The notes under the pieces were generated by a model. It searched no databases, was not told the DNA's origin, and worked only from the letters and a program-made list of their open reading frames with translations. From Bacteroidales bacterium (lineage in GTDB: Bacteria; Bacteroidota; Bacteroidia; Bacteroidales; F082), in the NCBI GenBank assembly GCA_029933225.1, contig JAOZOO010000011.1, forward strand, positions 1-45,155: DNA of 45,155 nt. Direction: 5' to 3'. Positions within the stretch are counted from its first letter, which is position 1; each line of letters starts with the position of its first letter. A program made the translations under genes and the position numbers. This document shows, piece by piece, positions 6,809 to 32,988 of this stretch.

Positions 6809-7309
6809 ATGGGAAAAGGAGATAAAAAAACCAAAAGAGGAAAAATCATAAAAGGTTCTTACGGCGTCAGAAGGCCCCGTAAAAAAGCAAAAGTATTCGT
6901 ATCTGTTAAAAAGAAGAAAGAGGAAAAACCTGTTGCAGCAGTAGAAACCGAAGAAAAGAAAGAAACAAAACCAAAAGCCACCCGGAAAAAGGCACCGGCC
7001 AAAAAAGAGACTAAACCGGCTGAACCGGTAACTGAAGCCAAAGTGGAAAAAGTTGAGGAAATACCTCCCGCTGCCGAAAAACCAAAAGCCGAGGAGAAAA
7101 AGGCAGAGGAACCCAAAGCTGAAGAGACAAAAGCAGAAGTGAAGGAAGAACCCAAGAAAGAAGAAAAACCCAAAGCCACGGCAAAAAAGAAAGCTCCTGC
7201 AAAAAAACCGGCTGCAAAGAAAACCGTGAAAAAAGAAGAAGCCAAAGAGGCCCCAAAAGAAGAAGTGAAGGAAGAACCCAGGAAAGAAGAAGAAAAACCG
7301 GAAAAATAA
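6809..7309 (+). CDS. 30S ribosomal protein bTHX with a long Lys/Glu/Ala/Pro tail
   Basis: Residues 1-26 (MGKGDKKTKRGKI then GSYGVRRPRK) are a clean match to bTHX, the very small basic protein that sits in the head of the 30S subunit. The family is normally only about 25-60 residues long, whereas this product has 166. The remaining 130 residues are low-complexity, made of K, E, A, P and T. They contain two copies of KPKAT.KKAPAKK (residues 54-66 and 120-133) and two of VKEEP.KEE (from residues 111 and 153), so the tail grew by duplication. The tail resembles histone-H1-like or HU-tail sequences and is likely disordered. The gene has its own promoter and a strong terminator, so it is monocistronic. 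Confidence 0.8.
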   Translation: MGKGDKKTKRGKIIKGSYGVRRPRKKAKVFVSVKKKKEEKPVAAVETEEKKETKPKATRKKAPAKKETKPAEPVTEAKVEKVEEIPPAAEKPKAEEKKAEEPKAEETKAEVKEEPKKEEKPKATAKKKAPAKKPAAKKTVKKEEAKEAPKEEVKEEPRKEEEKPEK

Positions 7310-7571: not shown

Positions 7572-10343
7572 TCATATTTTCTTTGCCAGCTCACTGAACG
7601 CATCCCCCCTGTGCTCAAAATTATGGAATTGGTCGTAGCTGGCGGCGGCAGGCGACAACAGGCACACTTTCCCTTTTTCGGTGTGCTTTTTAATTATTTC
7701 AAATGCTTCTTCCAGGTTTTTACACCGGAACAAACGGCGATTCTTCCTGATAATACCACCGAACAATTTATACATCTCATTCCCTGCCTTACCGAGAAAA
7801 ATAAAATTCCGGATTTTTGATTTTTTCAAAAAACCCACAAGCTCACTGTAATCCAGCCCCCGGTCGAAACCGCCGAGAATTAAAGTATCCACATCAGGAA
7901 TGCTTTTCACGGCAGCCATGGTAGATTGCGGAATGGTGGAAATGCTGTCATTGTAAAAACGGATATCTCCGTATCGTCCAATGTATTCCAGCCGGTGAGG
8001 CAACCCGCGGAATTTTTTTACAGCGGCAACGGCTTGTTCAAAGCTTACGCCATACTCCCTCACTGCCAGCATGGCAGCAAGCATATTCAGCATGTTGTGC
8101 TCGCCTTTTAGCTGAAGCTCCAGTTCATCAAGCGGAAATATCCCGTTTTGAAACTGCAATCCGCCCTCGATTAGTTTCCCGTCAGCAGTAACGGCTTTGC
8201 CGAAAGTTTTTTTGCTTCCCGCAGTGTCGCCGATGTGTTCATCTTCCGCAGTGATAAGCACATCACCGGGTATCTGGTATTTGTAAATATTATGCTTGGC
8301 CTTCCGGTATTCTGCAAACGAAGCGAAATGGTCGAGGTGTTCAGGGAAAACATTCAACAAAACAGCCACATGCGGAGAAACATAAACATCCTCCAATTGA
8401 TTGGCCGACAATTCAAATACCACAATGGTGTCAAAATCTGTTTCTCCGACGGCATCAAATGCAGGTTTTCCGATGTTGCCAAGCAACACGGATTTATGCC
8501 CCGACTCTTTGAGCAGGTGATGGATAAGGCTGGCTGTTGTACTTTTTCCTTTGGTCCCGGTTACCCCGATAGTCCGGTCACGGTAATAACCCAAAAAAAC
8601 AGCGGTTTGTGAAACGCCGTTCTGCTCAATGCCCTCCTTATTTTCAAGCTTCACACCGGGTGATTTAAAAACCAGATCATATTCTTCACTCGCATTCTGG
8701 TGGTTTCCGCCAAGGTGCAGTTTCAGATTCCCGTCGTCCCTGATCAATTCATCTCCGGCAATTTCTTCATCCCTGTCGGAAATTCCCAGCATCTTTCTAG
8801 GAAACAGCTCCCTGATGAGCCGGTATGTGGAACGCCCTTCCCTGCCAAAACCGAGTATCAGCACTTTCTCGTTTTCCTTTAAAATATTTTTCAGGAATTT
8901 TTTGAATCCCAGGGCATCATCTGACAAGGCACTTTTTAACAGATTCTCAAATTCAGGTTCCGGAAAATGATGAGTATTATAATTATTCAGCAATGATTCA
9001 AAACCTGCATTAATGTCAGGTAAGGGAAAATCCCTCAAAAACTGCTTCAGCAATAGAGGTTGTTTTTTTTCATCGGTTTTTTTGGCAAGGTACCATAAAG
9101 CATTCCTGGCTTCATCCGGTGTACCGATGCATTCAAACGGCTTGACTGTCGCCTTCCCGGTGAGCTCATCCAGTATTCCCGATAACGATTCATCCTCAAG
9201 CAGGTTTTTTCCAAAGATCTGTTCCAGCCGGTTGGGTGCAATGAAAGGTGAAAGAATAATATAGGTAAACAGGCATTTAGGACATTTGCCACACCATGTG
9301 TCGTTTTTGCTGCCTACGTTGCAACTTCTGAAACCTGTGAAATGCCATGGAAATGAAGAAAAAAGCCGTGCTATCTGAAGTTCGTTCAGGGGTCTTAAAA
9401 AACTGAAATAACTGATGCCCGGACTTAAATATTTCCGTGTATATGAAATAAAATCCTCCTCAAACTCAATGGATTTGGAATACTGGTGGTTGATCTTCGT
9501 TCCCGGGACCGTGCTCTCACTGGCGCTGCTTTCGTTGGACAGAGCAATATTACCAGCACCGGATGCAACTTGTGCCGTCGCTCCGATAAATGCAAGCAAT
9601 GCAGAAAAAGGCGTATGTCCGTTTAAAAAGCCCCGATCGTTCAATTCGAGCAATACGGGATCAAGTTTTCGCTCGATAACAATCGAGTTTTGCAGCGAAT
9701 ATCCTGCTGCTTCGATCGTCCGTATGCTTGCCGGGCGGGGATTAACCACCAGCGGTATCACTTCTTTATCACTGTCTTTCAGCAACTCCAAAGTCACGAC
9801 CGAATCTTTCCCACCGCCAACAGGCACGATTACTTTATTCCTGTCCGGTTCAAATGCTTTAAGCGCCCCGCTTAAAGGTTCAACCCCCGCTTCAAGCGTC
9901 CCGCTTGAAGTTCCAAAATCATTAACAAATGCCGTTTCAAACTCCATAAAATCGTCCATGTTCGCCTGAATGCCATTCAGATAGAAAAACTCTCCCAATC
10001 CGTGGAAGTAAAGTTTCTTCCACCAACTGACCTGTTCATCTGTTAATCCATACGGACGGATAATCACTTTCGGCGGACAGGCTGCTTTCCAGTAGCTGAT
10101 CAGTTCCACCATGCCGATATGAAAAACAAGGGAGTCCAATGCTTTCTTATCTGCCTGTTTAAAATTAATAACAGAACTGCCCTTGAACGTGATCCGGGGG
10201 GTAAAAAAAAATTTTTTTGACAGATTGAATGAAAATTTCACTTCAAGATTTTTGTTTTTTACCTGAAATGAATAACTTTGAAACTCAAAGAACGGATATT
10301 CTTTGCGAAACCTGTCAAATTTATTTTGATTGGAGACCTTCAT
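7572..10343 (-). CDS. MurL-MurD2 fusion: UDP-MurNAc-L-Ala-L-Glu ligase and epimerase
   Basis: The 923-residue product joins two enzymes. The N-terminal part (about 1-460) matches MurL, the ATP-dependent epimerase that turns the terminal L-Glu of UDP-MurNAc-L-Ala-L-Glu into D-Glu. It has a PP-loop-type nucleotide motif GGGKDS (176-181), the SNESSASE and NHQYSKS stretches, and a four-Cys cluster (Cys341, 351, 354, 357; WCGKCPKC). The C-terminal part (about 480-923) is a full MurD-type ligase: a Rossmann start (ILGFGREGRSTY), the ATP motif GTKGKSTT (Ser601), and GLPHRLEYIG. In the substrate loop NDSIST (798-803), Ile801 replaces the Lys of canonical MurD (NDSKAT) that contacts D-Glu, which fits an L-Glu-adding MurD2. 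The start at 10343 is chosen over one 61 codons upstream, because a promoter lies in between and the longer form would overlap yqgE. Confidence 0.82.
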   Translation of the reverse strand: MKVSNQNKFDRFRKEYPFFEFQSYSFQVKNKNLEVKFSFNLSKKFFFTPRITFKGSSVINFKQADKKALDSLVFHIGMVELISYWKAACPPKVIIRPYGLTDEQVSWWKKLYFHGLGEFFYLNGIQANMDDFMEFETAFVNDFGTSSGTLEAGVEPLSGALKAFEPDRNKVIVPVGGGKDSVVTLELLKDSDKEVIPLVVNPRPASIRTIEAAGYSLQNSIVIERKLDPVLLELNDRGFLNGHTPFSALLAFIGATAQVASGAGNIALSNESSASESTVPGTKINHQYSKSIEFEEDFISYTRKYLSPGISYFSFLRPLNELQIARLFSSFPWHFTGFRSCNVGSKNDTWCGKCPKCLFTYIILSPFIAPNRLEQIFGKNLLEDESLSGILDELTGKATVKPFECIGTPDEARNALWYLAKKTDEKKQPLLLKQFLRDFPLPDINAGFESLLNNYNTHHFPEPEFENLLKSALSDDALGFKKFLKNILKENEKVLILGFGREGRSTYRLIRELFPRKMLGISDRDEEIAGDELIRDDGNLKLHLGGNHQNASEEYDLVFKSPGVKLENKEGIEQNGVSQTAVFLGYYRDRTIGVTGTKGKSTTASLIHHLLKESGHKSVLLGNIGKPAFDAVGETDFDTIVVFELSANQLEDVYVSPHVAVLLNVFPEHLDHFASFAEYRKAKHNIYKYQIPGDVLITAEDEHIGDTAGSKKTFGKAVTADGKLIEGGLQFQNGIFPLDELELQLKGEHNMLNMLAAMLAVREYGVSFEQAVAAVKKFRGLPHRLEYIGRYGDIRFYNDSISTIPQSTMAAVKSIPDVDTLILGGFDRGLDYSELVGFLKKSKIRNFIFLGKAGNEMYKLFGGIIRKNRRLFRCKNLEEAFEIIKKHTEKGKVCLLSPAAASYDQFHNFEHRGDAFSELAKKI

Positions 10344-10394: not shown

Positions 10395-10985
10395 ATGAAA
10401 GACATATCCAAATATGTTCAGATCAGGACCAACAACCTGAAGCCAGCAAGGGGAAGGGCACTCATTTCGGAACCTTTCATGAGCGACTATTATTTTGGCC
10501 GCTCGGTAATTTTGCTGGCGGAACATAACGATGAAGGGTCGTTTGGCGTGATCGTGAACAAAAGGATAACTGCCACTTTCAATGAAGTTTTAAAAGACTT
10601 TCCTGATTTCGACGCACCTGTATTTCTGGGCGGCCCGGTTGAAACCGGCAGCTTGTTTTACATCCATACCCTGGGCGAAGAACTGGAAGGGGCAACCGAA
10701 ATCAATGACGGCCTTTACTGGGGAGGTGACATCGAAGCCCTGAAGGAACTCCTGCTCATCCGCAAGATCAACCCGACGGAAATCCGTTTCTTCCTTGGAT
10801 ATTCAGGCTGGGGCGCTAACCAGCTTGATGACGAATTGAAAAGAAATTCCTGGGTTATATCCAACATTACGAGAGACTTTCTGATGAAAATTGACCCGGT
10901 CAAAATGTGGGACAGCCTGCTTACCAAAATGGGAGGCACTTATAAATACTGGACAAAATTTCCCATCGATCCAACCATGAATTAG
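10395..10985 (+). CDS. YqgE/AlgH family protein
   Basis: The 196-residue product is a member of the YqgE/AlgH (DUF179) family, seen in the pattern RGRALISEPFMSDYYFGRSVILL, then GSFGVIVNKR, VFLGGPVE, and the late FFLGYSGWGANQLDDEL. The family is widespread; no catalytic activity is established. In pseudomonads a member was named AlgH from alginate regulation, but that name does not imply a link to the alginate locus in this window, 9 kb away. Transcription is divergent from the MurL-MurD2 gene with a 51-nt gap. A weak hairpin with a T-rich end (11002-11030) follows the stop. Confidence 0.9.
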   Translation: MKDISKYVQIRTNNLKPARGRALISEPFMSDYYFGRSVILLAEHNDEGSFGVIVNKRITATFNEVLKDFPDFDAPVFLGGPVETGSLFYIHTLGEELEGATEINDGLYWGGDIEALKELLLIRKINPTEIRFFLGYSGWGANQLDDELKRNSWVISNITRDFLMKIDPVKMWDSLLTKMGGTYKYWTKFPIDPTMN

Positions 10986-22175: not shown

Positions 22176-24383
22176 TTAATTATTTGATATTTCGGTTAAT
22201 GTAACTAACTGCCGGGCTGCATATACAGGGTCAGACGGTATTGAAACTTCCCACTTTTTACCGTTTTTCAGAATCAATACCACTTTGATATATTTTTCTT
22301 TGCTGCCATTCGTTTTGATCAAATTAATTTGCGAGGTGGCTCCCTTTGTCGATTCTTCGACCGGATTGTATTCTCCGTGCGGTTCGATCACATTTATAAA
22401 AAGATGATCTTTTGAATTTTCCTCCCGCAGGATGCCAGTATGTTCGTTTCGCAGGTTAAAATTCGGATCTCCAGCGCCGATCGTTGCAAACAATATTTCC
22501 GTGTTTTTATCGGTTAATGCGGTCAGGGTATAAAAGCGGTTGTTGACCAACCAGGTAATTTGTGCATTGTTCCCTTTGCTCCTGCCTTTTCCGTTTAACC
22601 ACAGGTGCTGGTAGCCATTGCTTTTCCCGAGGGCATTAAGTTGGGTTGTAAATACCGATACCGCAAAATCCGTCTCGATGAGTTGTCCGTTGTAATAGAA
22701 TGGGAGATCATACTGATGTTTCTTGTCCGTCGTAACTTTAAAAACGTCCAGTATTATCGGATGTTTTAGAGAAGGTATCCGCACCATGACCATTGTACGG
22801 TACATGGTAACGCCCGGATAGGCATTGGTATCAAGGGCGGACATGTACTGAAGTTCTTTGTTTTTGTCGGAAAACAACACTGCAACAGGGTGATGTTCCG
22901 AAGACACTTTGTAATCTCCCCCGAACTGGCAGGTTTCGTCAACAGTAAGCGTGTTGTGTGCAATGCTTTGCTTTGCCCATGATTTGTTTTCAGGAAGATA
23001 ACGTCCTCCGTTTTTGGCTTCGATATTTAAAAAACGGGCAGCGCCGTAGTCTCTCAATATTTCGGTATTGTGATCATAATAAATAAACTCCAGTTTGTCG
23101 AAATGACCATGCGCCAAACCTTGCGAAGTGTATTTCATCAACAGGCAACTTTGGTCGTCGTTATTTCCATACCTCAATATTCCGATACCGCCTTCATTAC
23201 CCTTGGGGCCATCCGAAAGAAAAACAGAATGCCAGTGAAAAGGTTGTTGCTTGCCTGCTTCCCAGTCCAGTGCAGTCTGCATACCCGCATCGGTCAGCGT
23301 AACCTCCTGTTGCCGGTCGGCTATATCCAGTAAATCAAAATCATGTCCGTACTCTTTGTAAGCGATATCAACGGCATAAACCATTTCAACCGTTTTGAAA
23401 GTTTTTTCCTTAATGGCATCATTTAAAGGAAAAAAAGCGCCGTTTGTATAAGTTAGTTGTAACGAGGCCTCCACAGCTTTTTTGAGAATGCTGTCGTTAT
23501 GACTGAAAATGTCAATATCAGGATCGTTACGTTGAATGGCTTCTGCAAAGATCATGAACGGCATCATGGCATATCGCTGGTAATACGGCCCCTCGGTATA
23601 ATAACCGTCGGGTGAGAACAATTGATGCAGTTGTGCCAGAAAACCGCCTTTTCCGTCTTTGTTTAACCCGTGCAGACTAATCTGAACAAGATCGTTATCC
23701 CCTGTCACATAACCCGTCATCCCGACAGCAGCAACCGCCCAGGTTCCGTGATTGTGAATCCTGTTGAATTCGTGAGGAGAGCCGGCGGAAAGGAAATCAG
23801 CCATCGGCAGGAACAGGTTGTTTTCAATCTTTTTTCTCTCGGGCTCTTTTAAATATGAATAAAGAAAATCGTATCCCTGAATTGAATAAACCAGCCACAC
23901 ACATTCATTCAAAGACTGCCAGAATAATTTGCCGGGACTTTGACTTTTGTGCATCGGGTGCAAACCCAACGTCGGGTACATTTCTGCATAAGCAAGGAGC
24001 ATCTTTTTTGCATATTCCGCATATTTTTTTTCTCCCGTTATCTGGAACAAAAGTCCTGATTCATAAAGTAATTTTCCGTTCTTTTTGTGCTGTTCATGTG
24101 TATATCCGCCACCGGCATCTTTGGGTATAGGAACAATAACGCCCTGTTTTATTGCCTGATCGACCCGGTTTTTAACGGAATAAAAAGTGTTGTCAATTAA
24201 TTTGTTCCTTCCAACCAGTGAATTAATCTTATTTGCACTTGATTTTGACAACAACAATACCGGATGAGCCGGTTCCCCCTCTCTTTTCTGATCATTTTCC
24301 TTTGTCATGCATCCCGAAAGTACCGATACAATCACAATCGTGACGATAATTTTTTTAAAGGGTATGTGTAAGGTTGTTTTCAA
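22176..24383 (-). CDS. Exo-type alginate lyase, PL17 family, lipoprotein
   Basis: The 735-residue product has a lipoprotein signal (lipobox LSGC, Cys25), an N-terminal (α/α) toroid domain (about 50-380) and a C-terminal heparinase II/III-like β-sandwich. Active-site residues of PL17 are in place: Asn211 and His212 in RIHNHGTW, and Tyr268 in SPDGYYTEGPYYQRY, whose spacing to Asn-His fits the known Alg17c arrangement. The second domain holds AHGHFDKLEFIYYDHNTEILRDYG. Members cleave from the ends of oligoalginate and release unsaturated monomers. It is anchored to a membrane facing the periplasm and lies 7 nt downstream of the PL6 gene, so the pair act in sequence. PL15 and heparin lyases share the fold but have different core motifs. 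Confidence 0.9.
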   Translation of the reverse strand: MKTTLHIPFKKIIVTIVIVSVLSGCMTKENDQKREGEPAHPVLLLSKSSANKINSLVGRNKLIDNTFYSVKNRVDQAIKQGVIVPIPKDAGGGYTHEQHKKNGKLLYESGLLFQITGEKKYAEYAKKMLLAYAEMYPTLGLHPMHKSQSPGKLFWQSLNECVWLVYSIQGYDFLYSYLKEPERKKIENNLFLPMADFLSAGSPHEFNRIHNHGTWAVAAVGMTGYVTGDNDLVQISLHGLNKDGKGGFLAQLHQLFSPDGYYTEGPYYQRYAMMPFMIFAEAIQRNDPDIDIFSHNDSILKKAVEASLQLTYTNGAFFPLNDAIKEKTFKTVEMVYAVDIAYKEYGHDFDLLDIADRQQEVTLTDAGMQTALDWEAGKQQPFHWHSVFLSDGPKGNEGGIGILRYGNNDDQSCLLMKYTSQGLAHGHFDKLEFIYYDHNTEILRDYGAARFLNIEAKNGGRYLPENKSWAKQSIAHNTLTVDETCQFGGDYKVSSEHHPVAVLFSDKNKELQYMSALDTNAYPGVTMYRTMVMVRIPSLKHPIILDVFKVTTDKKHQYDLPFYYNGQLIETDFAVSVFTTQLNALGKSNGYQHLWLNGKGRSKGNNAQITWLVNNRFYTLTALTDKNTEILFATIGAGDPNFNLRNEHTGILREENSKDHLFINVIEPHGEYNPVEESTKGATSQINLIKTNGSKEKYIKVVLILKNGKKWEVSIPSDPVYAARQLVTLTEISNN

Positions 24384-24390
24384 AATATTT

Positions 24391-26730
24391 TTATTTGTAA
24401 ATGACTCCTATGGTTGTTCCCTTTTGAAATTCAGAAGCATTAATCAGTCTCAAATCCAGTTTATCTTTATTTACATATTGTGGTTTTATGTGGTATATCT
24501 CGCTCCTGACAACATCACCGTAAAATGACTCGATACGTCCCGAATTGTACAGATCGCAATTGCTTACACTGCAGTTGTTCCAGCGTGTTTCTTCAAATTT
24601 CACAGATCTTCCTCCCCTGCCCGAGTTTGAAAAAACGGAATTGGTGACCGTGGCATGCTGAACACCGATCAGTCTCAATACCGAACCCAGCTCTTTATTG
24701 TTTACATTTTCAAATAGACAATGATTCACTTTCAGGAAAGGTCCCAATGTGCTTTCATCATTGCCTCCTCTGTATAGGTCAAGGGCGCTGCCCATCACAT
24801 TGATGAAAATGCAGTTTTCCAGGATTACGTATTCTGCGTTGTAAATCCCCCGGTCATCTTTTTCTGCCGAAAGGCTGATGGCGTCACCTGAAATGGTATG
24901 GAACAGGCAATAGGAAAATACAATAGAATCGGCAAACGAACCTTTTTCCGCTTTGAAAGCATTGTAACGTGATTCGTTAAAATTGTAAAATTCACAATCT
25001 TCTGCTTTCAGCCAATAGTGGTTGATCATGCCGTGATCATCGGTACGGATTGCGCTGGAAGTTTTGCCGCCGTTTTCAGTGGTCCCGTCAAACGCAATAC
25101 CTTTTATCCACAGTGCTCCGCCGTTTTTGATGATCATGTGAGATTTTCTCTCCTGTTTTTGACCATCAAATCTGATCACAGGTCGGTTCCCCGGATGATC
25201 GCTGCGAATGAAAAGCAGTTTGTTGATTTCAAGGGGAGTGGAAATAAAGTACTCTCCTGATGAAACCAAAATCAGGGTATCTCCGTCCCCGGCATTTGCA
25301 ACAGCTTTCTCCAGTTCGCCACGGTTATTGGTTACCTCTATCTGTTTACCCGGTTTCTTTTCAGCAGAGTCTTTTAAATTCAGCCAGGAAGGACCTGCAT
25401 TTCGTTTTTGCTCAAAAACATCCGGCAGGTATTTAATATCATTCTCCTGCTGTTTTTTAACCTTTCCTTTCTTCGGATAATATATTCCTTGTTTATTTTC
25501 CTTCAGAACCATTTCAACAAGCTCAAATCCTTTCATCCTAAAGGAAGTATCTTTTGAATAATAGCTGTTTTCTTTAAATTCAATTCCCGATACATCATCT
25601 AGCATTCTGACAGGAGGGATGTCATTTTGCTGGTAAATGGTGTTTTTCTCAAAAACCGTATTGACAGGTGGGGCGGTACGCTCATTGTCGCTGCCTACAC
25701 AAAATTCGATGTTGTCGCAGTTGATAAAAGTGTTGTTTGTGATGGTGACATCTTTTACCTGATGGTAGCGGTTTATGGCAGAATGCGGCACGCCGTTCAT
25801 TACAGCAAGGGCCGCCCTGAATCGTTTGCCGGTCAAAGCAAAAAAGTAATTGTCGTGAACCTGATGTTCCGTATTGATGATCCTCAACCCTGCTGTTGAG
25901 AACTTCCCGTTTCCAATGAAATAGTTTTCATAAATCTGGTTGTTATTTCCGTGACGAAGGACCAGACTTCCCTCACATTCAAAAAATACATTTCGCCGGA
26001 TGATGTTATCCGTAGCTTTTATTGAGACAGCTTCGGTTTCGCCGTTGCAGTGCTCAAAATAATTATCCTCAACGATTGTGTTTGAGGGCACCAGTGAATA
26101 AGTGGATGTCCCCAGCCGCATTGTTTCGCCGCCATTGGAACCCAGCCGTTTTCTTTCACCGAAATAATTGTGGTCTATCCGGTTGTGATTATCCTGATTA
26201 TTCGGATGGTTCAGATATTCTGCAACGGTTACACCGGCATTCAGCTTCCCGGCAAAGTAATTATGGTCTATCCGGTTATGTTTTCCATAAACAGCAACCC
26301 AGTTGTCTTTATTAAATCTTTCATTCTGGTTGTAACTGATAACGGCACATTGTGTAACGCGACAATGCGTGGCCGGATTATCAGGGGTTTGAGCAAAAGA
26401 AATAACCGCTTTCCCCGGAGCATGACCGTTTGTAAACAACAGTCCGGTAACTTGCAGATAACTGCCTGACAATACCAGACATGATTCACCTTCAATACTG
26501 ACTTTACCGGGTGTTTCGGCAGTCAGTACCATCGGATTTTCTTCCGTACCGTTACCTTTGAAAATCAGCCTGACATTCTCCCAGATACCGTTGGCCATTG
26601 TCAGCGTGTCGCCCGGTTTTAATTTTTCAAGGACGGCATTGTATTCGGAAAAATTCCTCACAAAATAATTCGTGGCTGTCACCGGAAGGTAAAACCACAG
26701 CAGAATTAATAAACCACTAATTTTTTTCAT
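24391..26730 (-). CDS. Alginate lyase, PL6 family (two β-helices)
   Basis: The 779-residue product starts with a signal peptide (about 1-20) and has two right-handed parallel β-helix regions, seen as repeated N.(I/V)..N.F patterns. Catalytic features of PL6 are clear: Glu231 and Glu233 (NGETEAVSIK) and Asn199 for the calcium ion, Lys238 as base, and Arg259 (LVLRHG) as acid. The Lys-Arg spacing of 21 equals that of the family enzyme AlyGC. The second helix (about 470-760) makes it the long, two-domain form. PL6 enzymes attack poly-G, poly-M or mixed blocks; the block preference cannot be read. It has no lipobox, so it is periplasmic or secreted. It lies 12 nt after eda. Confidence 0.92.
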   Translation of the reverse strand: MKKISGLLILLWFYLPVTATNYFVRNFSEYNAVLEKLKPGDTLTMANGIWENVRLIFKGNGTEENPMVLTAETPGKVSIEGESCLVLSGSYLQVTGLLFTNGHAPGKAVISFAQTPDNPATHCRVTQCAVISYNQNERFNKDNWVAVYGKHNRIDHNYFAGKLNAGVTVAEYLNHPNNQDNHNRIDHNYFGERKRLGSNGGETMRLGTSTYSLVPSNTIVEDNYFEHCNGETEAVSIKATDNIIRRNVFFECEGSLVLRHGNNNQIYENYFIGNGKFSTAGLRIINTEHQVHDNYFFALTGKRFRAALAVMNGVPHSAINRYHQVKDVTITNNTFINCDNIEFCVGSDNERTAPPVNTVFEKNTIYQQNDIPPVRMLDDVSGIEFKENSYYSKDTSFRMKGFELVEMVLKENKQGIYYPKKGKVKKQQENDIKYLPDVFEQKRNAGPSWLNLKDSAEKKPGKQIEVTNNRGELEKAVANAGDGDTLILVSSGEYFISTPLEINKLLFIRSDHPGNRPVIRFDGQKQERKSHMIIKNGGALWIKGIAFDGTTENGGKTSSAIRTDDHGMINHYWLKAEDCEFYNFNESRYNAFKAEKGSFADSIVFSYCLFHTISGDAISLSAEKDDRGIYNAEYVILENCIFINVMGSALDLYRGGNDESTLGPFLKVNHCLFENVNNKELGSVLRLIGVQHATVTNSVFSNSGRGGRSVKFEETRWNNCSVSNCDLYNSGRIESFYGDVVRSEIYHIKPQYVNKDKLDLRLINASEFQKGTTIGVIYK

Positions 26731-26742
26731 TACAACGTATTA

Positions 26743-27420
26743 TCAGTATCTTATTTGCTGAATGATTGCCAGTGTTTGTTTTACACGATCAGTAATTTGC
26801 TGAAGATCGCCCTGGTTAATCATCTCTGCGGGAAACAGTTTCGATCCAATACCGACACAACAGACCCCTGCTTCAAACCAGTTTTTCAGATTCTCATAGT
26901 CGGGAGCTACTCCTCCTGTCGGCATAAGTAACAGACCGGGTAATGGCCCCAAAACGGCTTTGACAAAACCGGGTCCTCCGATCTGTTCTCCCGGAAACAA
27001 TTTGATGATCTCCGCTCCGAGTTTTCCCGCTTGTACAATCTCGGATACCGTTCCACAACCAGGTATCCACATCACATTCTGCTCTTTACAAACGACTGCC
27101 ATTTCGGGAACAAGTGCGGGAGAAACAATAAAATCAGCCCCTGACCTGATAAAATGTTTTGTCGTTTCCGCGTCGGTTACCGATCCCACTCCGAGATACA
27201 TGTCAGGCAATTCCGATTTAACATATTTCGCCAGGCCGGCAAACACTATGGCTGCAGATTTACTGCGGTTTGTGAATTCAAAAACACGGATTCCTCCTTT
27301 ATAACATGCCTTTACTACCGATTTACAGGTATCCGGGTCTACATGGTTGAAAACAGGTACCATCCCTGATGACTTCATGCTTTCGATGATTCTTTCCTTT
27401 AAAATTCCTCCCATTATCAT
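26743..27420 (-). CDS. eda: 2-keto-3-deoxy-6-phosphogluconate (KDPG) aldolase
   Basis: The 225-residue product has the length and fold of KDPG/KHG aldolase, a class I aldolase in a TIM barrel. It cuts KDPG into pyruvate and D-glyceraldehyde 3-phosphate, the last step of the alginate route in this operon. The Schiff-base Lys140 is in IIKLFPGE and the acid-base Glu48 in VFEFTNRS. Pyruvate-site features GCGTVSE and PTGGV are also present. The start MIMGG may be the second Met (residue 3). The gene is 12 nt downstream of kdgK, as in other alginate clusters. Confidence 0.94.
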   Translation of the reverse strand: MIMGGILKERIIESMKSSGMVPVFNHVDPDTCKSVVKACYKGGIRVFEFTNRSKSAAIVFAGLAKYVKSELPDMYLGVGSVTDAETTKHFIRSGADFIVSPALVPEMAVVCKEQNVMWIPGCGTVSEIVQAGKLGAEIIKLFPGEQIGGPGFVKAVLGPLPGLLLMPTGGVAPDYENLKNWFEAGVCCVGIGSKLFPAEMINQGDLQQITDRVKQTLAIIQQIRY

Positions 27421-27432
27421 TCTTTTCGTATT

Positions 27433-28467
27433 TTACCTTGATACCCGACCGGAAGCATCCCCGCTCATTAATTTTTCAATCTCTTCAATCGTCACCCTGT
27501 TGAAATCTCCTTCAATGGTATGTTTCAATGCCGAGGCTGCGACGGCAAACTCCAGCGCCTCCCGTTCATTATTCAGACGCAATAAACCGTAGATCATTCC
27601 GCCCATAAATGAATCACCTGCGCCAACCCTGTCAACAATATGAGTAATGCGATACGTTTTCGACTTTAACAAATCTTTTCCGTTCCATAACACGGCAGAC
27701 CAGTTATTGTGGCTTGCGCTTACCGACTCCCGCAATGTCGTTATCACTTTCTTAACTTTCGGGAACCGGCTGATAATTTGTTTTGATACCGTTTTATAGG
27801 CTTCAACATCAATCTGTCCTTTGGTGATGTCCGTATTTTCGGGTTTGATGTAGAGACACATTTCGGCATCTTCTTCATTGCCCATTACGAGATCGCATCC
27901 TGCGACCAGCTCGGGCATAACTTCCGTAGCTTTTTTGCCGTAGTTCCAGAGTTTTTTCCGGTAATTCAGATCGCACGAAACCGTAATCCCCAGTTCATTT
28001 GCCGTTTTTATCCCTTCGCGGCAGACCTGTGCCGCGCTTTCCGAAACAGCCGGTGTAATGCCGCTCCAGTGAAACCAGACAGTGTTCTGAAATATTTTTT
28101 TCCAGTCAATCATTCCGGGATCGATGGTGGAAAAGGATGAAAAAGCCCGGTCGTAAATCACTTTGGACGGACGCGAAACAGCACCTTTTTCAAGAAAATA
28201 AATACCCATTCTGTTTCCGCCTCTTAAAATGTACGAAGTGCCGACATTTAGTCCTTTCAGCTCCCTGATGCATGCTTCGGCAATATCATTCTCGGGTAAG
28301 CGGGTAACAAATTCCGCTTTCAAATCGTAATTGGCCAGTGATACAGCAACATTTGCTTCTCCCCCGCCAAAATTAATCTCAAAATGGTTTTGCTGCCCGA
28401 AGCGCAAAAAACCGGGAGTTGACAGCCGTAACATTATTTCTCCGAAAGTGACTATTTTTTCATTCAT
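27433..28467 (-). CDS. kdgK: 2-keto-3-deoxygluconate (KDG) kinase
   Basis: The 344-residue product is a PfkB-family sugar kinase with N-terminal FGEIMLRLSTPG, the FGGGEANVAVSLA substrate loop, and the catalytic DRVGAGDSFMGG with the anion hole and base Asp. It phosphorylates KDG to KDPG with ATP. It differs from ribokinase and fructokinase by the operon context rather than by a single residue. It is the first gene after susD, separated from it by an 83-nt gap that holds a strong hairpin, so its level is probably lower than that of susCD. Confidence 0.93.
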   Translation of the reverse strand: MNEKIVTFGEIMLRLSTPGFLRFGQQNHFEINFGGGEANVAVSLANYDLKAEFVTRLPENDIAEACIRELKGLNVGTSYILRGGNRMGIYFLEKGAVSRPSKVIYDRAFSSFSTIDPGMIDWKKIFQNTVWFHWSGITPAVSESAAQVCREGIKTANELGITVSCDLNYRKKLWNYGKKATEVMPELVAGCDLVMGNEEDAEMCLYIKPENTDITKGQIDVEAYKTVSKQIISRFPKVKKVITTLRESVSASHNNWSAVLWNGKDLLKSKTYRITHIVDRVGAGDSFMGGMIYGLLRLNNEREALEFAVAASALKHTIEGDFNRVTIEEIEKLMSGDASGRVSR

Positions 28468-28493
28468 AAGGGAAACAAATTATCCAGGTGAAA

Positions 28494-28537
28494 GTGAGGG
28501 GTGAAAATCTTTTTCATATTAAATAATCACCCCTCAC
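28494..28537 (-). promoter_or_regulatory. Stem-loop between susD and kdgK
   Basis: An 11-bp perfect stem (28494-28504 paired with 28527-28537) has a 22-nt A/T-rich loop. It lies between the susD stop and the kdgK start and is not followed by a T tract on the minus strand. It probably marks mRNA processing or partial attenuation, separating highly expressed susCD from the enzyme genes. Confidence 0.65.
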
Positions 28538-28550
28538 CTTTTAAAAGTAA

Positions 28551-29909
28551 TTAATATCCGGGATTTTGAACGAGATATCCGTCACTTACATCAATTTCCC
28601 TTTGCGGGATGGCAAACAACAACTGATGCTCGCTCATGGTAAAGCCATACTTGGCTCCCTGTGCATTCATTACTTCCATTGCTCTTCCGGTACGCAACAG
28701 GTCGAACCAGCGATGGTTCTCAAACCCGAGTTCGTGGATTCTTTCCTTTTCCATGGCCGACCGGTATTGATCTTTTGTTGAGAGATCAGCGGAAGTATAA
28801 TCAGGCAAACCAGCCCTTTCCCTGACAGCATTGATGGCATCCAGCGCTTCCTGGGTAGGACCGTTAATTTCATTGATGGTCTCTCCCAGCATCAGCAGGA
28901 TATCTGCATAGCGAAGTACGGGCCAGTCGTTTCCGGCATCTCCCGAGTTGGCATCCGACAGATATTTACCACACAACGAATCCGGCGTAATGCTGAAATT
29001 ATACCTTATACTATCAGCCACCGAATAACCCGACATCATATCAGGTGTGGGATTATTCAGACCGCCATAAACACCAGTGAGTGTAAATTCACTGGAATAA
29101 GATTCTCCTTCTCCCCCCACAGCCGACATGAACCGGATAGAAAACAGTATTTCATTATTTACCTGGGGATCAAAAACCTCGGGATAGGTTGGTTGTAACG
29201 AATAAACGCCTGACGAAGTGACTTCCCTTAATAATGAAAGGGCTTTGTCATACTGTTTCAGTGTTAAATAAACTTTGGCAAGCAATCCCTTTGCCGCTCC
29301 CGATGTGGCTCTTGAGAATTGCCCTTCATTGCTGGCAGGAAGCAGCGATATTGCATTTTGAAGGTCGGCAATAATCTGATCGTATGTTTTGTCAGGAGAC
29401 ACATTGGCAAATTTTTCTTTGTCTTCAGCCAGGATAACATCAGTGACCAAAGGGATATTCCCAAACAGCCTGACCAGATTGAAATAATTCAAAGCACGGA
29501 TAAACAGCGCTTCGCCTTCAACCCTTTCGCGTGTTGGACCATCCGAGATTACATCCAGATACTGGAGCACTTTGTTTGTCCTGAAAATCGTATTATAACA
29601 TACTTGCCAGTAATTTGTCGTTATGCTATTATCGGGAGTTTCCATAAAATAATCAATGAGTTTAAATTCTCCCTCCCCGAGTACGGTAGTTGTGTTGTCA
29701 GACCGGATTTCACACAGCACATATTCAGTTTGAATTGAATGCTGTAAACCGTCATAACAACCTACTAATGCTGCCTCAACCTGATCTGTGTTTTGATAAA
29801 AATCTTTTTCACCAATGGCAGATTCGGGCGTTAAATCAAGTTGTTTTGAACAGGATGTACCTATTAGAACGAATACAATGCTGATAAATATTAATTTTTT
29901 CATGATCAA
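28551..29909 (-). CDS. susD: SusD/RagB family nutrient-binding lipoprotein
   Basis: The 452-residue product has a lipoprotein signal with GTSC (Cys20), TPR-like helices that pack against SusC, and the family ends: RERVEGEALFIRALNYFNLVRLFG in the middle and WFDLLRTGRAMEV then QNPGY at the C-terminus. SusD caps the outer-membrane SusC transporter and captures sugar chains; here the substrate is inferred to be alginate oligomers. It follows susC by 13 nt, the usual pairing. The product is a little shorter than classical SusD (about 550), as is common in alginate clusters. Confidence 0.93.
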   Translation of the reverse strand: MIMKKLIFISIVFVLIGTSCSKQLDLTPESAIGEKDFYQNTDQVEAALVGCYDGLQHSIQTEYVLCEIRSDNTTTVLGEGEFKLIDYFMETPDNSITTNYWQVCYNTIFRTNKVLQYLDVISDGPTRERVEGEALFIRALNYFNLVRLFGNIPLVTDVILAEDKEKFANVSPDKTYDQIIADLQNAISLLPASNEGQFSRATSGAAKGLLAKVYLTLKQYDKALSLLREVTSSGVYSLQPTYPEVFDPQVNNEILFSIRFMSAVGGEGESYSSEFTLTGVYGGLNNPTPDMMSGYSVADSIRYNFSITPDSLCGKYLSDANSGDAGNDWPVLRYADILLMLGETINEINGPTQEALDAINAVRERAGLPDYTSADLSTKDQYRSAMEKERIHELGFENHRWFDLLRTGRAMEVMNAQGAKYGFTMSEHQLLFAIPQREIDVSDGYLVQNPGY

Positions 29910-29922
29910 ATCTTTTTAATAA

Positions 29923-32900
29923 TTAAAAATTAAGATCCAAACCAAACACAAAAGATCTGGCAATGGGTGCTGCACCACGCTGATAACCATAAGTTAAGGT
30001 CGTGTTAAACCGGTTAACCCCTTCAGGATTCATTCCCGTATATTCGCTGGAAGTGAAATACAACAGGTTTTGTGAAGTAAAATAGATGCGGATTCCTCCT
30101 ATGCTGTTGTTTTCAAACCATCTGGCCGGGAAACTGTATCCGATTGTAAGATTCCTCAGGCTTGTATAAGAAGCATCCTGAACATTCCAGTCGGTTACCA
30201 CTTTGCTTTGCAGAAAATCGGCATTTTCAATATCTGATTTGTTCCCGCCTTTCCATTGCGTTCCGAAATAATAGGAGTCGATATTGTAAACCGAAGCGCC
30301 CTGTGATCCTTGCCATAACATGTAAATATCAAAATTACCAATGTTAAAAGTATTGGTAATACCCCAGATAAAATCAGGATACGGGTTGCCTAATGGCACA
30401 CGGTCATCCGGCGTAATAACGCCATCACCATTCATGTCTTTTACATAAATATTTGCTGACTGCACGTTCACCGGGTAATAAGGTGAAGTCATGTCTTCCC
30501 TGTTAATTTCATGATTATAAACATAACCGTAAAACTGAACCAGCGGATCACCTACACGTGCAATAAACTGGCTTGGTCGTTTTTTATCAGGTGTAGTAAT
30601 AACTTCCTCCGGACCACCAAAATCAAGTAATTTGTTTGCATTATGAGAGAAATTTAAACCAATATTCCATTTAAATTTCTTATGGTCAATAATGTGTCCG
30701 AAAAATTCAACTTCAAAACCCTGATTCTGAACCTTACCCATGTTCGTCCAGACATTTGTAAATCCGGTTGCAGCCGGGATCTCCTTGAACAGCAGTAGTT
30801 TTTTTGTTGTTTTGTTATAATAATCAAATGTAATATCAAACTTATCACCCAGAAAACCGATGTCAATTCCTGCATCAAACTCATAAGTCTGCTCCCAACT
30901 CAAATCGGGGTTTGCAATATTAATTTCCGTGAATCCCTGAGCGACACCGTCACCTATTATTGCATTGGCACTGGGTTCAACCAGAGCCTGGGAAGCATAG
31001 TCTCCAATACGATTATTCCCGGTGGTACCATAACTGACCCTGAGTTTCAAAGTGTTGACGACATCCTGGTTTTCCATAAAGCCCTCATTAGCAACATTCC
31101 ATCCCACTGAAACCGAAGGGAAGAATCCCCATTTGTTGTTTTCTCCGAACCGGCTGCTTCCGTCCCACCTGACCGTTGCGTTTACCAGGTACTTGTTTTT
31201 ATATGCATAATTAACCCTGAAAAGCGTGGATACCAGGTTTGATTTGGTTTTGTAAGTTGAACCTTTATCGAGTACTGTACCTGCATTTAAGGTATGAATC
31301 TCATCCGTAAGAAAATCCGATACCCTGATGTTGGAAAGAAGATGCTGGGTGCTTTGATAAGTAAAACCAGCCAGTACACTCAGGAAATGGTTGCCGAAAG
31401 TATGGGTATAATTAAGGGTGTTCTCATTCAGGTAATCTGTAGTAAGATTCCCGCCGTAAGTTCCGTAATTCTCAGATTTCCTGTGCGACCATGCGGCCTG
31501 ATAAAATTGTGACTCATAATAACTTACAAACGTTCCGAAAGTAGATCTGAAAGTAAGTCCTTTAAGGATTTTAAATTTCAGGTAAGAATTGGCATTTACC
31601 TGATAATTATTGTAATATTTATATTTTCCTTCAACCTTTGCAATCGCATTGTTGTTGCTGCTCACTTTTAAACTAACCCCGTCAACATTTGTAAAATGCC
31701 TTTCATGGGCCCAGTCACCGATTTTAACATCTTCATAGCCTGCCGCATGTGCATATCCAACGGTTGCCTCCGTATGAAACTCAGGCAACCAGGGCTGATT
31801 TCGCAAAGCATCCTGAAGTCCCAGGGCAATGACACGTTGTTTGCTGAAACTCGGGATAACCGTCACCCCTGCTTCAAACCATTTATTGATTTTTGCATCT
31901 ACATTTACATTAATGTTATACCGTTTGTAGTTGTTGGTAATGATAACCCCGTCATCATTCAGATATGCTCCGGAGATATAGAATTTAACTTTTTCGTTTC
32001 CTCCACTGGCGCCGAGGGAATAATTCTGAATCACACCGTTTTTGAAAACAATATCTTCATAATTCGTCGCGGTACCCAATAAATTCATTGCTGCTATTTG
32101 GTCCGGTATCAAACTCGGATCGGATGCGGAAGAATTGACAAAATTTGTCCACTCGGATGGTGTCGGATAATACCCCGGCTTTTTATATACAGATTTTGTT
32201 CCTGCATAAGCATTGAACCTGAAAATGGTTTTTCCGGCCTGACCGCTTTTTGTGGTAACGAGGATTACCCCGTTAGAACCACGGGAACCGTAAATAGCCG
32301 CTGAAGCAGCATCTTTCAGCACTTCTATCGACTGAACATCATACATGTCAACAGTTGAAAGATCACCCGGTATGGGGTAACCGTCAACAACGATCAACGG
32401 ATTATTTGAACTGTTCACGGAAGTAATACCGCGTACTGTGATCTTTGGGGCCGCTCCGGCTTCAGCATTGGTATTTTGTACCAATACACCGGCTAACTGA
32501 CCTTTTAACACATCAGCTGCGCGGGATACCGGCATTTGTGATAAATGCTTATTATTCTTCAGTTTCGCAACAGACCCGGTTACATGTGACTTTTTCTGAA
32601 CACCATATCCAACCACAACAACTTCTCCAATCTGTTCATAATCCGTGTGTAAACTCACATTAATAATTGACTTCTCACCCACTTTTACCTCCTGGGTAAC
32701 GTACCCTACAAAAGAAAAAACCAAGATGTCGTTGGGGTGAACCGTAATTTTAAAGGTTCCATCCGTGGCCGTAACGGTGCCAATCGTTGTCCCCTTAATT
32801 ACAACATTTACGCCTGGAAGAGGTTGCTGATGCTCGCTATCAACAACTTTACCAGTAACTTCCTTTTTAACAGCCTGGCCTGTTTGTGCCTGTGTAGTTG

Positions 32901-32988
32901 CTACAATAAAAAACAAGAATAAAACACTTACACACAGGCTACCTGAAAAGGAAAAATTGAACCTTTGTAAAAGTTTGATCATAACCAT
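29923..32988 (-). CDS. susC: SusC/RagA TonB-linked outer membrane transporter
   Basis: The 1021-residue product begins with a signal peptide (about 12-35, ending TTQAQ), a CarboxypepD_reg-like domain (about 40-115; GKVVDSEHQQPLPGVNVVIKG), and a plug with YGVQKKSHVTGSV, VDGYPIPGD and AAIYGSRGSNGVILVTTK (about 125-255). The barrel runs to the C-terminal FGLDLNF. These are SusC/RagA signatures. It imports oligosaccharides into the periplasm using TonB energy, together with SusD. It is the first gene of the alginate operon. No TAnnTTTG promoter was found just upstream; the best near-match is TAGTTTAC on the minus strand (33014 to 33007). Confidence 0.95.
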   Translation of the reverse strand: MVMIKLLQRFNFSFSGSLCVSVLFLFFIVATTQAQTGQAVKKEVTGKVVDSEHQQPLPGVNVVIKGTTIGTVTATDGTFKITVHPNDILVFSFVGYVTQEVKVGEKSIINVSLHTDYEQIGEVVVVGYGVQKKSHVTGSVAKLKNNKHLSQMPVSRAADVLKGQLAGVLVQNTNAEAGAAPKITVRGITSVNSSNNPLIVVDGYPIPGDLSTVDMYDVQSIEVLKDAASAAIYGSRGSNGVILVTTKSGQAGKTIFRFNAYAGTKSVYKKPGYYPTPSEWTNFVNSSASDPSLIPDQIAAMNLLGTATNYEDIVFKNGVIQNYSLGASGGNEKVKFYISGAYLNDDGVIITNNYKRYNINVNVDAKINKWFEAGVTVIPSFSKQRVIALGLQDALRNQPWLPEFHTEATVGYAHAAGYEDVKIGDWAHERHFTNVDGVSLKVSSNNNAIAKVEGKYKYYNNYQVNANSYLKFKILKGLTFRSTFGTFVSYYESQFYQAAWSHRKSENYGTYGGNLTTDYLNENTLNYTHTFGNHFLSVLAGFTYQSTQHLLSNIRVSDFLTDEIHTLNAGTVLDKGSTYKTKSNLVSTLFRVNYAYKNKYLVNATVRWDGSSRFGENNKWGFFPSVSVGWNVANEGFMENQDVVNTLKLRVSYGTTGNNRIGDYASQALVEPSANAIIGDGVAQGFTEINIANPDLSWEQTYEFDAGIDIGFLGDKFDITFDYYNKTTKKLLLFKEIPAATGFTNVWTNMGKVQNQGFEVEFFGHIIDHKKFKWNIGLNFSHNANKLLDFGGPEEVITTPDKKRPSQFIARVGDPLVQFYGYVYNHEINREDMTSPYYPVNVQSANIYVKDMNGDGVITPDDRVPLGNPYPDFIWGITNTFNIGNFDIYMLWQGSQGASVYNIDSYYFGTQWKGGNKSDIENADFLQSKVVTDWNVQDASYTSLRNLTIGYSFPARWFENNSIGGIRIYFTSQNLLYFTSSEYTGMNPEGVNRFNTTLTYGYQRGAAPIARSFVFGLDLNF

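Follow-up and report, generated by a model that had tools for sequence, protein, structure and literature searches.

The closest described system to the locus reported here is that of Xanthomonas oryzae, where the ligase MurD2 (XOO_1320) and the epimerase MurL (XOO_1319) operate in a genome with no gene for the glutamate racemase MurI (PMC8788868, PMC5808125). Specificity of X. oryzae MurD2 for L-glutamate (L-Glu) is set by E197 and R358, the equivalents of D182 and K348 of E. coli MurD, and the double reversion E197D/R358K turns the enzyme wholly to D-glutamate (D-Glu); in E. coli MurD, the substitution K319T, at a residue near ADP, admits L-Glu with loosened stereospecificity (PMC8788868). 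MurL has been reported to use ATP, with AMP formed, to act unidirectionally and to be without known domains, and its authors have already put forward an adenylate intermediate (PMC8788868, PMC5808125). In Bacteroidales, an order outside the published taxon list of the Xanthomonas-type pathway, we find both proteins in one polypeptide, encoded at 7572-10343 on the minus strand of a 45,155-nucleotide stretch of contig JAOZOO010000011.1 ("the window", by which we mean this whole stretch). Judging from sequence, it is highly probable that the product is a single bifunctional cytosolic enzyme for two successive steps of peptidoglycan-precursor synthesis, replacing MurI.

The ligase half would add L-Glu to the precursor and the MurL half, a QueC-like PP-loop domain with a putative structural zinc site, would then convert it to D-Glu, spending ATP to AMP and pyrophosphate on adenylation of the alpha-carboxylate of the added L-Glu. 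Such a route would stand in for glutamate racemase, and the fusion would set both activities at 1:1 and hold the unusable L-Glu intermediate beside the epimerase. Both activities, the adenylate mechanism of the window protein and any channelling are what we infer; both halves are full length with their conserved residues kept, which counts for the bifunctional reading.

Structure of the fusion gene

The gene is a single open frame (10343..7572) of 923 amino acids plus stop, and the plus strand has stop codons throughout across the same interval. An earlier note, made from the sequence letters, had recognised MurL and MurD2 in one polypeptide here; profile matches to both halves bear this out, and the strand is supplied by our analysis. 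The motifs it had listed (GGGKDS, SNESSASE, WCGKCPKC and NDSIST) lie in one common minus-strand frame, and its numbering of Ile801 is correct. A longer frame of 984 amino acids is possible from an upstream ATG at 10526. Because that ATG would run into a divergent AlgH-like gene (10395-10985), and because related proteins begin near the ATG at 10343, we prefer the 923-residue start. The features are the following:

7572..10343, minus strand: murL-murD2 fusion gene (from translation; fused frame kept in the genus)
8916..10343, minus strand: MurL half, residues ~1-476 (NF041275 profile, AlphaFold model)
9801..9818, minus strand: residues 176-181, the PP-loop motif GGGKDS (no variation across 42 MurL sequences)
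9516..9539, minus strand: SNESSASE motif, residues 269-276 (motif search, MurL alignment)
9273..9323, minus strand: four-Cys cluster C341-x9-C351-x2-C354-x2-C357 (invariant in 42 sequences), with WCGKCPKC at 9273-9296; putative QueC-type zinc site
8880..8915, minus strand: junction, residues ~477-488 (comparison with separate genes)
7575..8879, minus strand: MurD2-type ligase half, residues ~489-923 (TIGR01087 profile, E. coli MurD fold)
8538..8558, minus strand: Mur ligase ATP loop GTKGKST, residues 596-602 (translation, MurD alignment)
8340..8342, minus strand: E668, equivalent to E. coli D182 and X. oryzae MurD2 E197, L-Glu determinant (alignments; PMC8788868)
7935..7952, minus strand: NDSIST, residues 798-803, identical in Xanthomonas MurD2; I801 is equivalent to E. 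coli K319
7860..7862, minus strand: R828, equivalent to E. coli K348 and X. oryzae MurD2 R358, L-Glu determinant (alignments; PMC8788868)

Unfused MurL proteins end in ...ILKNALND and unfused MurD2 proteins start with ...KVLILGYGKEGRS; the fused window protein reads ...LLKSALSDDALGFKKFLKNILKENEKVLILGFGREGRS. The fused chain is ~6 residues longer than separate MurL and MurD2 laid end to end, so that few residues were gained on fusion. Modelling, which the earlier note had proposed, gives two well-folded halves in the full-length AlphaFold prediction (pLDDT 87.5, pTM 0.78), with helices 463-474 and 477-487 crossing the junction and no flexible linker. For the fusion, the ratio of nonsynonymous to synonymous substitution rates (dN/dS) is 0.12.

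L-glutamate determinants of the ligase half

The C-terminal half matches the MurD profile TIGR01087 over positions 1-440 of 441 with 314 bits (curated cut-off 212; scored in the 984-aa frame), and its model matches E. coli MurD with a fold Z of 38.5 over 410 residues. The three-domain Mur ligase fold and the catalytic residues K115, E157, H183, K198, R302 and D317 of the canonical enzyme are shared; in the MurD alignment the window protein keeps K600, N623, E644, H669, K683, R784 and D799. It differs from canonical MurD in its fused MurL, in its grouping with MurD2 in the tree, and in the changes D182 to E, K319 to I and K348 to R.

These three positions were followed through an alignment of 120 MurL-linked MurD2 proteins, 30 MurDs of the dcw cluster and E. 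coli MurD (numbered as in the literature, without the initiator Met). The D182 position is Glu in 118/119 MurD2 and Asp in 29 of the 30 dcw MurDs; at K348 there is Arg in 115/115 MurD2 against Lys in 30/30 dcw MurDs, and at K319 Ile in 115/115 against Lys in 30/30. The window protein has E668, I801 and R828, and the annotated Xanthomonas sacchari MurD2 has E206, I339 and R367 with the same NDSIST. Ile801, which the earlier note had taken to fit an L-Glu ligase, is a genuine MurD2 mark, because K319 is replaced by Ile throughout the MurD2 rows and X. sacchari shares the motif; by the published mutagenesis, E668 and R828 are the better-proven determinants. In the tree, fused, separate and Xanthomonas MurD2 are split from the dcw and E. 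coli MurDs by a branch with Shimodaira-Hasegawa-like approximate likelihood-ratio (SH-aLRT) support of 99, the Xanthomonas branch being long. Assignment of the ligase half to the MurD2 type, with L-Glu-type determinants, is thus supported at the level of sequence comparison.

The MurL half and its likeness to QueC and QatC

The N-terminal half scores 259.5 bits against the NCBIfam MurL model NF041275 (E 4e-77, scored in the 984-aa frame), the match covering positions 7-440 of the 447 in the profile, and is 33% identical to X. sacchari MurL over 401 columns. Its AlphaFold model (pLDDT 90.3, pTM 0.89) finds as top structural match QatC of the qatABCD defence system, with Z 18.0 over 329 residues, nearly the whole domain, followed by QueC (Z 13.3 over 200 residues, and 12.6) and Cap9 (Z 12.2); further PP-loop enzymes follow at Z ~8. 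QueC is marked by its PP-loop together with a zinc site of the form C(x)8CxxCxxC (PMC13329287). In a profile alignment the GGGKDS motif and four-Cys cluster of MurL stand in register with the PP-loop (SGGQDS) and cysteines of QueC, the Cys spacing in MurL being one residue longer (x9 versus x8). Since hhalign of MurL to a QueC alignment reaches a probability of only 21% (E 0.001), the likeness rests mainly on the fold; the Pfam QueC match (E 0.17) is not significant. A single-sequence search of the PDB with MurL gave no match, a profile search only the PP-loop of TtuA-type proteins, and PADLOC no match to the MurL half.

The predicted structure places the MurL half among the QueC/QatC-type PP-loop ATPases (PF06508; PMC13329287, PMC13279940), with which it would share the fold, the PP-loop at a strand-helix turn and a four-Cys motif of zinc-binding type, so that C341, C351, C354 and C357 are predicted to bind zinc. 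It differs from them in sequence (11-16% identity) and in that known QueC-family reactions are on 7-deazaguanines, with no peptide epimerisation; the 2026 QueC/QatC papers PMC13329287 and PMC13279940 make no mention of MurL. The combination of a QueC-like PP-loop fold with the published consumption of ATP to AMP leads us to propose adenylation chemistry for MurL. PP-loop enzymes adenylate their substrates and release AMP. In the most likely course of the reaction the alpha-carboxylate would be adenylated as in QueC, and inversion and hydrolysis would follow.

MurL-like proteins labelled hypothetical are also encoded on Pseudonocardia plasmids, for example at L231:3806-5206 of plasmid pPaSha1 of Pseudonocardia alni, where no murD is annotated within ~4 kb. 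This may point to another role for MurL-like enzymes.

Frequency and origins of the fusion

Statements on frequency refer to an order survey of 247 genomes and a set of 61 relatives. The earlier note had placed the two Xanthomonas activities on separate adjacent genes, which holds, as murL and murD overlap in X. sacchari. Fused frames occur in 4/85 MurL genomes of the order survey, our genome counted, and in 9/41 MurL genomes among the close relatives. The latter comprise every genome of the genus that has MurL, five in number, and two genomes in each of two other genera of the same family. Among named Bacteroidales loci, 75/80 have the genes adjacent, overlapping or abutting on one strand and 5/80 are fused; in many relatives the overlap of separate murL and murD2 is 4-20 nt, with 4-17 nt being typical.

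In a FastTree phylogeny of 120 concatenated loci, the 17 fused loci need 10 changes, at least 7 of them forced by well-supported branches; an IQ-TREE phylogeny of 59 loci gives 9 changes, at least 6 on well-supported branches, with the five fused genomes of the genus as one clade (SH-aLRT 93). The full-length alignment A2 was rejected because N-termini of separate MurD2 proteins were aligned into MurL, and A4 was used. Fusion therefore arose repeatedly and is a minority form, separate overlapping genes being usual. A phylum-wide sample of 395 genomes gives no fusion frequency, since it holds no MurL-level match outside our genome (two partial matches, E ~1e-4), and tblastn against viral contigs found no relative of the fusion. 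In one relative (G037) a MurD2-type ligase with NDSIST (G037:C68:19264-20583; L185:6235-7692, minus strand) lies away from murL, and a canonical MurD was not found there.

Probable replacement of glutamate racemase

The genome that carries the window (3.68 Mb, 361 contigs) has no MurI-level match, the best score being 41.9 bits against a cut-off of 146.65. Weak TIGR00067 matches occur in MurL genomes; the one in our genome was rejected as MurI, the protein belonging to the aspartate/glutamate-racemase family TIGR00035. Among relatives, MurL is found in 41/61 genomes, murI in 17/61 and both in 0/61; in the order survey MurL is present in 85/247, murI over the cut-off in 148/247, both in 0/247 and neither in 14/247. 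The exclusion is significant (Fisher p 6e-52); this value makes no correction for common descent, but many families are represented among the genomes. None of the 61 relatives has a D-amino-acid transaminase that exceeds the cut-off, and the TIGR00035 racemase is sporadic among MurL genomes, with no match in G004, a fused genome that is 98% complete. These patterns and the absence of any co-occurrence of MurL with murI are most simply read as a replacement of MurI by MurL plus MurD2, in line with the racemase bypass that the earlier note had supposed.

Alternative explanations and the retained canonical MurD

Several observations weigh against this reading. The MurL match lies far under the NCBIfam cut-off of 700, although that model is named MurL_Xanthmoales, its cut-off marks that clade, and nowhere in the phylum or order samples is it reached. 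The positions of X. oryzae P433 and F435 are A901 and Y903 in the window protein rather than Pro and Phe; the corresponding X. oryzae mutants P433A and F435L stayed L-Glu specific (PMC8788868). The genome is only 92% complete, and it has both a TIGR00035 gene (211 bits) and a class IV aminotransferase that in NCBIfam scores highest against D-amino-acid transaminase (131.7 bits against a cut-off of 277), such matches of 120-131 bits recurring in all six genomes of the genus searched; D-Glu could partly come by way of either enzyme. Finally, the dcw cluster still has a canonical murD, intact and strongly conserved, immediately upstream of ftsW, with the D-Glu-type residues at D182, K319 and K348 and a dN/dS of 0.077 against its nearest relative. 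It is kept although neither MurI nor an over-threshold D-Glu transaminase was found. The pairing that the earlier note had named as counter-evidence, canonical murD plus murI, is thus present as to murD, while murI was not found. The genes concerned are:

G000:C348:22504-23826 (L002, L178): canonical dcw MurD of the window's genome
L192:1897-2739 (G000:C346): class IV aminotransferase
L179:6688-7236 (plus), L180:5110-5658 (minus), L182:5444-6031 (plus), L183:7573-8112 (minus) and L181:5357-6004 (minus, near contig end): C-terminal dcw murD frames of other MurL genomes

Were the canonical dcw MurD the main ligase, the fusion would be an auxiliary or salvage enzyme or the maker of a special precursor. 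Most of the family does have an intact dcw MurD, which is better conserved than the fusion (88.7% versus 74.1% identity between our genome and G001), but this MurD has no evident D-Glu supply, and in five MurL genomes (G008, G018, G031, G039 and G041) its place upstream of ftsW is taken by a C-terminal frame of ~180-216 aa that lacks the ATP loop, which makes this explanation unlikely. These stubs start on a conserved internal Met or close to it; active-site residues are eroded in those of G018, G031 and G039, that of G008 shows near-normal conservation, and that of G041 is near a contig end. Three further MurL genomes (G020, G037 and G056) have only a MurD2-type MurD over the cut-off, the G020 contig ending at ftsW. 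Because of these five and three genomes, it can be argued that dcw MurD catalysis is dispensable where MurL and MurD2 are present, even though the domain or gene is kept.

Still less probable is an ordinary D-Glu ligase half, supplied by the racemase or aminotransferase named above, with the MurL half doing some other job. Both candidate enzymes are encoded in the genome, but E668, I801 and R828 are the determinants of L-Glu enzymes, the racemase and transaminase are distributed as described above, and MurL and murI exclude each other. That a sequencing or assembly error joined two overlapping genes is extremely unlikely. With overlaps as short as those of many relatives one indel could do so, and the tip fusions L132, L134 and L153 have unfused near neighbours, so single indels or sequence errors may account for some tip fusions. 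The fusion of the genus is not an error, since it is common to five independently assembled genomes at ~55-75% identity, its junction is conserved between the two closest of them, and fusion recurs in the four genomes of the two other genera. The bifunctional, MurI-replacing enzyme is accordingly the reading we prefer.

Genomic neighbourhood

The neighbourhood of the fusion gene is ordinary: one flank has genes for Thx, a SpoU methylase and a prolyl oligopeptidase, the opposite flank those for AlgH, an M16 peptidase and acyltransferases. The gene for 30S ribosomal protein Thx (window 6809-7309, plus strand) matches in its first 26 residues and continues in frame into a Lys/Glu/Pro/Ala-rich tail of ~140 residues. 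Further along (22176-32988, minus strand) lies a polysaccharide-utilisation cluster with SusC-like and SusD proteins and a PfkB kinase and, nearby, a major facilitator superfamily transporter and a short-chain dehydrogenase/reductase; its lyases are of chondroitinase B type and alginate-lyase/heparinase type, and it probably serves alginate use.

Significance of the fusion

Compared with the Xanthomonas system, the window encodes homologous full-length enzymes with the murL-murD2 order and gene neighbours alike, no murI, and E/I/R determinants that match X. sacchari MurD2; it differs in having one polypeptide, A901/Y903 for Pro/Phe, and a canonical dcw murD that is also kept. Mur fusions named in NCBIfam (MurE-MurF, MurC-Ddl and MurF-alanine racemase) likewise combine in a single chain precursor steps that are consecutive or supporting, but none is listed there as joining a ligase to the epimerase of its own product. 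As far as the open-access literature shows, the pathway and enzymes are known and the architecture, taxonomic range and repeated fusion are new; the 2017 MurL and 2019 MurD2 papers may mention fusion or Bacteroidota.

A natural single-chain form of both reactions is a handy subject for structural and kinetic study, and QueC-type acyl adenylation would give a testable mechanism for the MurL epimerase, for which earlier work had left this point open. The finding raises the question of why canonical MurD is retained without MurI. It also means that a murD annotation by itself cannot tell which glutamate enantiomer a bacterium uses. A pathway known from Xanthomonas-type and a few other bacteria now reaches about one third of the sampled genomes in the large order Bacteroidales, replacing MurI without overlap.
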